58,396 bases of DNA. Origin: Nitrospirota bacterium (GTDB lineage: Bacteria > Nitrospirota > Thermodesulfovibrionia > Thermodesulfovibrionales > UBA1546). Shown here one piece after another: positions 10,501 through 31,573 of the stretch. How positions within the stretch are numbered: position 1 is the stretch's first letter; each line of letters opens with the position of its first letter. Where the stretch lies: positions 1 through 58,396 of the forward strand of contig JACRGY010000131.1 of the NCBI GenBank assembly GCA_016212165.1, in the 5' to 3' direction. A program made the position numbers and the translations under genes. The notes beneath the pieces are model-generated. The model saw only the letters and a program-made list of their open reading frames with translations, ran no database searches and was not told where the DNA came from.

Positions 10501-10660
10501 AGATCTCAGGAGGGGACTGTCTTTGAGCGGTTTTATTTTACCGATAGTCAACAACCCCCTTTTCCCCCTTTGCTAAGGGGGAATTAAAGAGTCATAAAGA
10601 GGTAAAATACCTCGGAGCGGAGCGAGAATGAGCGAAAAGATTGTTCCCTCCCGAGATCTC
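10501..10660 (+). repeat. Long hairpin element, copy 1
   Basis: Starting 6 nt after the DUF1207 stop codon, the segment is bracketed by an imperfect inverted repeat (left arm AGATCTCAGGAGGGG, right arm its near complement ending CGAGATCT). Inside is an inner pair ATTTTACC/GGTAAAAT. The interior blocks at 10522-10550 and 10608-10640 recur in inverted orientation at 31437-31530. The loop holds an extra perfect hairpin (TTCCCCCTT/AAGGGGGAA). It may be a 3'-UTR structure, a terminator relative or a non-autonomous mobile element. Confidence 0.7.
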
Positions 10661-31413: not shown

Positions 31414-31421
31414 TGGTTAAT

Positions 31422-31545
31422 AATCAGGATATAATATTTTCGCTCATTCTCGCTGCGCTCCGAGGTATTTTGCCTCTTTATTATTTTAAGCATTAACTGT
31501 TGGACTATCGGCAAAATAAAGCCGCTCAAACACTATATCCTGATT
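31422..31545 (-). repeat. Long hairpin element, copy 2 (inverted relative to copy 1)
   Basis: Perfect 12-nt inverted repeats (AATCAGGATATA at 31422-31433 and its complement at 31534-31545) close a 124-bp segment. Read on the minus strand, its interior repeats copy 1: TTTGAGCGG, ATTTTGCC, CCGATAGTC, GAGGCAAAAT and GAGAATGAGCGA. The inner stem is ATTTTGCC/GGCAAAAT where copy 1 has ATTTTACC/GGTAAAAT. It lies 8 nt after the MBL stop and 28 nt before tRNA-Thr. Confidence 0.75.
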
Positions 31546-31573
31546 GTTTTAAAAATGTATAATGTAAGCTAAT

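Follow-up and report, generated by a model that had tools for sequence, protein, structure and literature searches.

Integron attC sites are recognized by their shape as a folded single strand; their stems vary, their outer boxes are conserved and they stand in cassette arrays. Small bacterial repeats, by comparison, are normally known by their fixed ends. The enterobacterial ERIC/IRU elements are intergenic repeats of 127 bp with terminal inverted repeats (TIRs), TA ends and target-site duplications (PMC2229807). NEMIS/Correia elements have a 24-bp TIR, TA ends and a target-site duplication, and RNase III has been suggested to process the long stem in their transcript (PMC2229807). The YPAL/RU-2 element of Yersinia, 168 bp long, is flanked by target-site duplications of 3-26 bp (PMC2229807). 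REPINs consist of two inverted copies of a conserved REP, and REPs bear a GTAG end tag (PMC3733652).

We analyzed a window of 58,396 nucleotides, a single stretch from a Nitrospirota MAG (2.79 Mb, 202 contigs, 8% contamination reported; hereafter the source genome). Its two hairpins are members of an undescribed dispersed repeat family of about 110-160 bases, in which a 20-bp outer helix (P1) is kept with nearly arbitrary sequence in hundreds of copies in related genomes. The element resembles ERIC/IRU in being intergenic, of high copy number and built around a long hairpin, and probably in an orientation-dependent effect on mRNA (PMC2229807), but has free-sequence ends, no duplication and a three-way junction, and belongs to a different phylum. 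REPINs of the REP-RAYT system are likewise extragenic hairpins of comparable size that multiply within their genome (PMC3116915) and persist at orthologous sites; here, however, there is no conserved REP pair, the outer arms are not conserved, and one carrier, G004, holds the element without a Y1 transposase. It shares with YPAL the inverted repeats, the lack of TA ends, a target preference near dyad symmetry and the occurrence of empty and filled sites (PMC2229807), but not the target-site duplication. As in NEMIS/Correia, a long stem would form in the transcript (PMC2229807), although the folded transcript is putative here and P1 evolves freely with compensation. The likeness to attC lies in the variable stems and the folded single strand, and shape recognition may extend to the Nitrospirota element; its outermost part is, however, the least conserved, and its copies are dispersed among housekeeping genes.

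Element copies, anatomy and distribution

Copy 1 lies on the forward strand at 10501-10659 and copy 2 on the reverse strand at 31422-31545. The original prediction had placed two hairpins here, with outer stems that are palindromic in each copy yet unrelated between copies and an inner stem that carries a compensatory change (ATTTTACC/GGTAAAAT in copy 1, ATTTTGCC/GGCAAAAT in copy 2), and sequence inspection bears out each of these points. It had also placed both copies less than 10 nt after a gene stop, and the start of each copy is 6-8 nt from a stop codon (gene ends 10494 and 31413). Copy 1 is in the same orientation as the gene it follows and copy 2 in reverse to its preceding gene. Both were recovered by a covariance model trained on copy 2 and further members of the family, copy 2 (within the training set as L046) at 31418-31551 on the reverse strand with E 3.1e-27 and copy 1 (outside the training set) at 10501-10657 with E 1.8e-20. 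The features are as follows.

10501-10659, forward: copy 1, whole element (cmsearch match 10501-10657, E 1.8e-20)
10501-10524, forward: copy 1 P1 5' arm AGATCTCAGGAGGGGACTGTCTTT, an unusually long pairing (from sequence; partner 10636-10659)
10525-10530, forward: copy 1 junction motif GAGCGG (near invariant among 59 copies)
10535-10542, forward: copy 1 P2 5' arm ATTTTACC (from sequence and P2 covariation)
10543-10600, forward: copy 1 P2 loop, GATAGTC and then the nested CCCCCTTTGCTAAGGGGG palindrome
10601-10608, forward: copy 1 P2 3' arm GGTAAAAT (from sequence)
10611-10626, forward: copy 1 P3 hairpin CTCG...CGAG with a GAG bulge (closing pairs invariant)
10627-10635, forward: copy 1 junction motif AATGAGCGA (invariant in alignment A1)
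10636-10659, forward: copy 1 P1 3' arm (from sequence)
31422-31545, reverse: copy 2, whole element (cmsearch match 31418-31551, E 3.1e-27)
31528-31545, reverse: copy 2 P1 5' arm AATCAGGATATAGTGTTT, as read on the reverse strand (from sequence)
31522-31527, reverse: copy 2 GAGCGG (from sequence)
31510-31517, reverse: copy 2 P2 5' arm ATTTTGCC (from sequence)
31467-31474, reverse: copy 2 P2 3' arm GGCAAAAT (from sequence)
31449-31464, reverse: copy 2 P3 hairpin (from sequence)
31440-31448, reverse: copy 2 AATGAGCGA (from sequence)
31422-31439, reverse: copy 2 P1 3' arm (from sequence)

With the orientation of copy 1 taken as the element strand, the order is P1 arm, GAGCGG, P2 arm, loop, P2 arm, CCTCGGAG, P3, CGAG, AATGAGCGA and P1 arm, and the invariant junction letters are GAGCGG / CCTCGGAG / CGAGAATGAGCGA. 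P1 spans about 20 bp and is nearly free in sequence, with a loose consensus GRCAGGRYATAGTATTT / AAATRCTATRYCCTGYC and nearly random letters in its outermost pairs; when own arms were compared with swapped arms in 186 copies, the excess of pairing ran through position 20-21 and fell to chance level beyond. Directly inside P1, GAGCGG can stand opposite GAGCGA as G-A, A-G, G-C and C-G, and minimum-energy folds put two G-C pairs at this position. The usual P2 arms are ATTTTGCC and GGCAAAAT, around a loop that starts with GATAKTC and tolerates variation. The palindrome CCCCCTTTGCTAAGGGGG is nested in the P2 loops of many copies (19 occurrences inside elements and 2 outside, in the stretches pulled); its presence, at 10550-10590 of the window in copy 1, varies between orthologous copies. 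Position counts gave no more than a mild A/T enrichment outside P1, and no T run past the stem such as the U-tract of an intrinsic terminator would give. Three loci (L329, L331:6235-6391 and L222) have an extra small hairpin (e.g. TCGGTACGACTCTGCGAG) between GAATG and AGCGA, which makes a four-way junction. At L088, the ortholog of L234:10631-10772, the whole of P2 is swapped for TATCATCAC/GTGATGATA and the remaining element is intact.

The hairpin had been described as a two-copy element. A blast search of the source genome with copy 1 gave 49 matches, and the covariance model, built from 59 short-loop copies (A1; R1) of the source genome, its relatives and named Nitrospirota MAGs, found at least 69 copies in the source genome and 74 in G002, a genome of the same genus, with 0.78 Mb scanned in each (28% of the source genome); these stretches were picked around known copies, and a density cannot be extrapolated from 69 or 74. 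Carriers make up 27 of the 61 sampled genomes of the order, with 1 to at least 56 copies each, and a phylum-wide draw gave the element in 9 of 118 genomes. In Rfam searches the window had no element match at gathering level, and the elements in the copy-holding loci had none even at E<=1; with gathering and permissive thresholds together, tRNA genes and one chance match were the only returns. The phages, plasmids and viral contigs searched held no match to the element, and literature searches found no description of the repeat family. As an undescribed structured repeat in an abundant, poorly studied subsurface phylum, the family merits masking or annotation in Nitrospirota genomes.

Covariation and the selected strand

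The proposed helices covary. Among the 69 copies of the source genome, 94.0% of base-pair cells are paired as against 77.6% after shuffling, and 361 cells are changed on both sides as against 96.5, a level reached in none of 500 shuffles. Alignments fitted to the model are biased towards it; A1, aligned by MAFFT without structure, gave 92.8% paired cells (79.3% shuffled; about 45% in slid controls) with 259 cells changed on both sides (74.6 shuffled), and again none of 500 shuffles reached these values. The 23 copies from five genomes of other genera are 91.5% paired with 152 double-changed cells (0 of 500 shuffles), and in some of them P2 and P3 are swapped outright (e.g. CAGCTCG/CGAGCTG) with the junction letters nearly unchanged.

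The inner part of P1 distinguishes the two strands. Summed over all contexts, it contains 254 G-T/T-G cells compared to 21 A-C/C-A cells. G-T and A-C are expected to be equal in the absence of selection for folding of one strand, and thus the folded single strand is the selected form. The ratio of G-T to A-C is 155:16 in antisense copies and 41:2 in sense copies, with the same direction in every gene context, which indicates that it is a property of the element and not of its neighbors. In 171 of 186 copies, P1 is predicted to be more stable than its reverse complement. All of these strand counts come from related copies and are not independent of one another. By these counts, selection has acted on the folded single strand of the element. 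This strand would most simply be RNA, and the data fit single-stranded DNA as well. From two copies, it had been proposed that pairing maintained with changed sequence points to a functional RNA or structured DNA; the covariation and the one-strand G-T excess strongly support this.

Gene context and turnover at orthologous gaps

Between co-directional genes, as defined by our own simple ORF caller, the element strand is antisense in 93 copies and sense in 17 (p 7e-14). The antisense class has a median distance of 9 nt from the upstream stop and of 17 nt to the next start. Antisense-to-sense counts are 25:6 in G001 and 8:3 in G003, both of the same genus and sharing sites, such that the counts are not independent, and 12:3 in the other genera together. 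Copy 1 belongs to the sense minority and copy 2 is antisense. Replication strand was considered as the cause of orientation and rejected, as local gene direction is the better predictor of orientation (67:5 where gene direction and replication strand coincide, 14:7 where they conflict); replication may have an effect besides that of local gene direction.

Comparison of flanks across the genus revealed that a given gap holds the same element, an element with an unrelated P1, an inverted element or none, sometimes with one P1 arm left. Orientation is inverted in 9 of the 29 gaps that have a copy in both G000 and G002. Copy 1 itself is inverted in G002, and the element there retains the same 5' arm CAGGAGGGGACTGTCTTT. 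At the site of the L189:7516 copy, the flanking genes abut in G000 and no element is present, and the gaps in G017, G058 and G004, which leave 80, 88 and 58 nt between the aligned parts, could not accommodate one. This copy has the same 83-nt core, without a difference, as another copy at a distance of 1.3 kb, but the P1 arms of the two match at only 22 of 40 positions. Judged from these flanks, copies have been gained, lost, inverted and replaced, with complete exchange of P1, at orthologous gene gaps. At L045 (contig C124 of the source genome, near 1685-1805), tandem left halves of the element lie upstream of a complete copy, which suggests insertion into or beside existing elements.

The original prediction is supported in its structural part and not in others. 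It had set the element apart from a mobile one, whereas the patchy distribution, together with copies gained, lost, inverted and replaced between orthologous gaps, points to mobility. It had also suggested a processed 3' UTR or small RNA; a sense 3' UTR does not agree with a folded strand that is antisense in 93 of 110 copies between co-directional genes; the two-copy description is superseded by the family.

The sequence of P1 is uncoupled from that of the core. About 4,500 within-genome paralogous pairs have a mean P1 identity of 20-23 of 40, however similar their cores are, and in the 8 pairs whose cores are 95% or more identical the P1 arms are no more alike than those of random copies. 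Transposition of the whole element should yield pairs that share both P1 and core; none was found among the paralogous pairs, which counts against it. Two explanations fit these pairs equally: conversion of cores between standing copies, or renewal of P1 when a copy is made.

Proposed mode of spread and competing readings

From these patterns we infer the mode of spread, an RNA activity and the cause of the antisense orientation. The reading that we favor, with moderate confidence, is a high-copy, non-autonomous, interspersed mobile element that functions as a single folded strand, most likely RNA. A trans-acting factor would recognize the shape formed by the P1 helix and the GAGC/GCGA junction module and would spread the element by way of its folded strand. 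We propose that P1 is free in sequence because recognition is by shape. Sense insertions in operons would be purged, with the folded strand in the mRNA harming expression by termination, processing or cleavage. Cores would be homogenized between copies, probably by gene conversion or core-only copying, and P1 would remain site-specific. Such an element would be a natural system in which to ask how repeats spread when shape alone is recognized and why the sense strand is avoided in operons, and its junction is a candidate for a new RNA activity.

More tentatively, the family may be a new kind of shape-recognized mobile element. In that case the folded strand (P1 with GAGC/GCGA) would be the substrate, P1 would not pass on with the core but be made anew or exchanged whenever a copy moves or is converted, unrelated interiors (class A, the element described above, and class B, described below) would share one end module, and an RNA activity, possibly self-cleavage, would bar the sense orientation in operons.

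Changes between orthologs bear on a further possibility, which we regard as rather unlikely: a host-functional RNA motif, which would serve in regulation or processing or give rise to antisense or small RNA, held in operon gaps by selection and not chiefly mobile. Orthologs hardly differ in the core but do so in P1 and the spacers, with 12 of 798 positions changed in the two core motifs vs about 91 of 1654 in P1, a core count that may be biased low, as the detecting model includes the core. At the 34 sites where orthologs have the same P1, 20 inner P1 changes are to G-U and 6 to A-C (p 0.009). An early, smaller count of P1 changes between orthologs (13:12) had been taken as no strand bias, and this was dropped after more genomes gave 28:11. 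The G-T preference and the spared core suggest some selection in place, as far as these orthologs go, and the sparing of the core would fit either host-level selection or core conversion. In addition, separate copies occupy the gaps between successive thi and aro genes (names that we take from our own reading of the translations), and the same gaps carry copies in two species. Against a host RNA, presence is patchy across genera, orientation or P1 differs at many orthologous gaps and the element is missing at others, no common gene category was evident among the loci that we read, and the strand that pairs in an RNA-like manner is in most cases non-coding; conversion between copies could also explain the conservation of the core.

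It is improbable, as a special form of either the mobile or the host-RNA reading, that the element is a self-cleaving ribozyme or strong processing site whose sense copies are removed as cutting the message. The invariant junction letters across three helices, with helices and loops free, the strand-specific fold and the depletion of sense copies in operons would all suit putative self-cleavage. However, the element matches no known ribozyme family in Rfam, and 17 copies still lie in sense between co-directional genes.

An ordinary DNA MITE or REP/ERIC-like repeat, with the apparent structure merely its terminal inverted repeat, is mostly refuted, and we give it a very low probability. Such repeats typically have the size, intergenic site, copy number and dispersal seen here (PMC2229807), but the ends differ. 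Fixed terminal inverted repeats are absent, paralogs agreeing at about 22 of 40 P1 positions regardless of core identity; element ends lack TA termini; and direct repeats of 4 bp or more next to the P1 ends are no more frequent with own flanks (17.2%) than with swapped flanks (19.4%) in 186 copies, which gives no sign of target-site duplications. The original prediction had named, as its own refutation, further copies that lack pairing or that share identical ends with target-site duplications; the further copies stay paired and show no such ends. Moreover, a 12:1 asymmetry of G-T over A-C is unexpected for a double-stranded terminal repeat. Least probable is an outer palindrome upheld by mutation (template switching at quasi-palindromes) and not by selection, which the small strand bias in the outermost 9 bp of P1 and several double changes in outer P1 between orthologs (once with flanks 97% identical) would fit, but which yields perfect Watson-Crick stems and cannot produce the 12:1 excess of inner P1, and against which the fixed stem length and the covariation of P2 also stand.

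The search for a mobilizing gene identified none. A resident RVT_1 reverse transcriptase was rejected as a partner, as RVT_1 is missing from the source genome and several heavy carriers (none in G000, G004, G017, G051 or G057). Y1/RAYT transposases, also considered as a partner, occur in some of the carriers: Y1 matches number 2 in G000 (one weak) and 3 in G002, but 0 in G004, which has 9 element copies, and a cmsearch of the Y1 loci (L249-L260) found no element. Insertion into the loop of existing terminators or hairpins is disfavored, as pairing ends at 20-21 bp and sequence outside elements gave no P1 hairpin that lacks an element. Long copies with cargo (up to 6 kb between P1 arms) were also considered, and the two candidates above 150 bases were judged to be arms of neighboring copies pairing by chance.

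A second structured repeat, class B, was found in eight copies (L202:9744-9889, forward; L180:14296-14434, reverse; L174:4515-4662, forward; and L234, L242, L198, L246 and L248). Its interior reads TTTTTCGGTAACAGTTCTTAG...CTTAGAACTGTCGAAAAAT, with 136-170 nt between the P1 arms, and its ends are the class A end module, a variable P1 plus TTGAGCGG on one side and AAGCGAAA on the other. Class B P1 arms pair at 12.25 of 14 positions with their own partner vs 9.7 when swapped. Different interiors with one end module are the outcome that would be expected of a shared recognition factor. The gap at L115, orthologous to L222:3123-3261, contains a further unrelated interior after GATGCCTTTGAGCGGCATTAC..., with no match in Rfam, which is possibly a third element class. 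Finally, L212:9050-9101 on the reverse strand is a core-less derivative in which the P1 arms are linked by GAGCGA alone, the product expected of recombination between the two GAGCG motifs.
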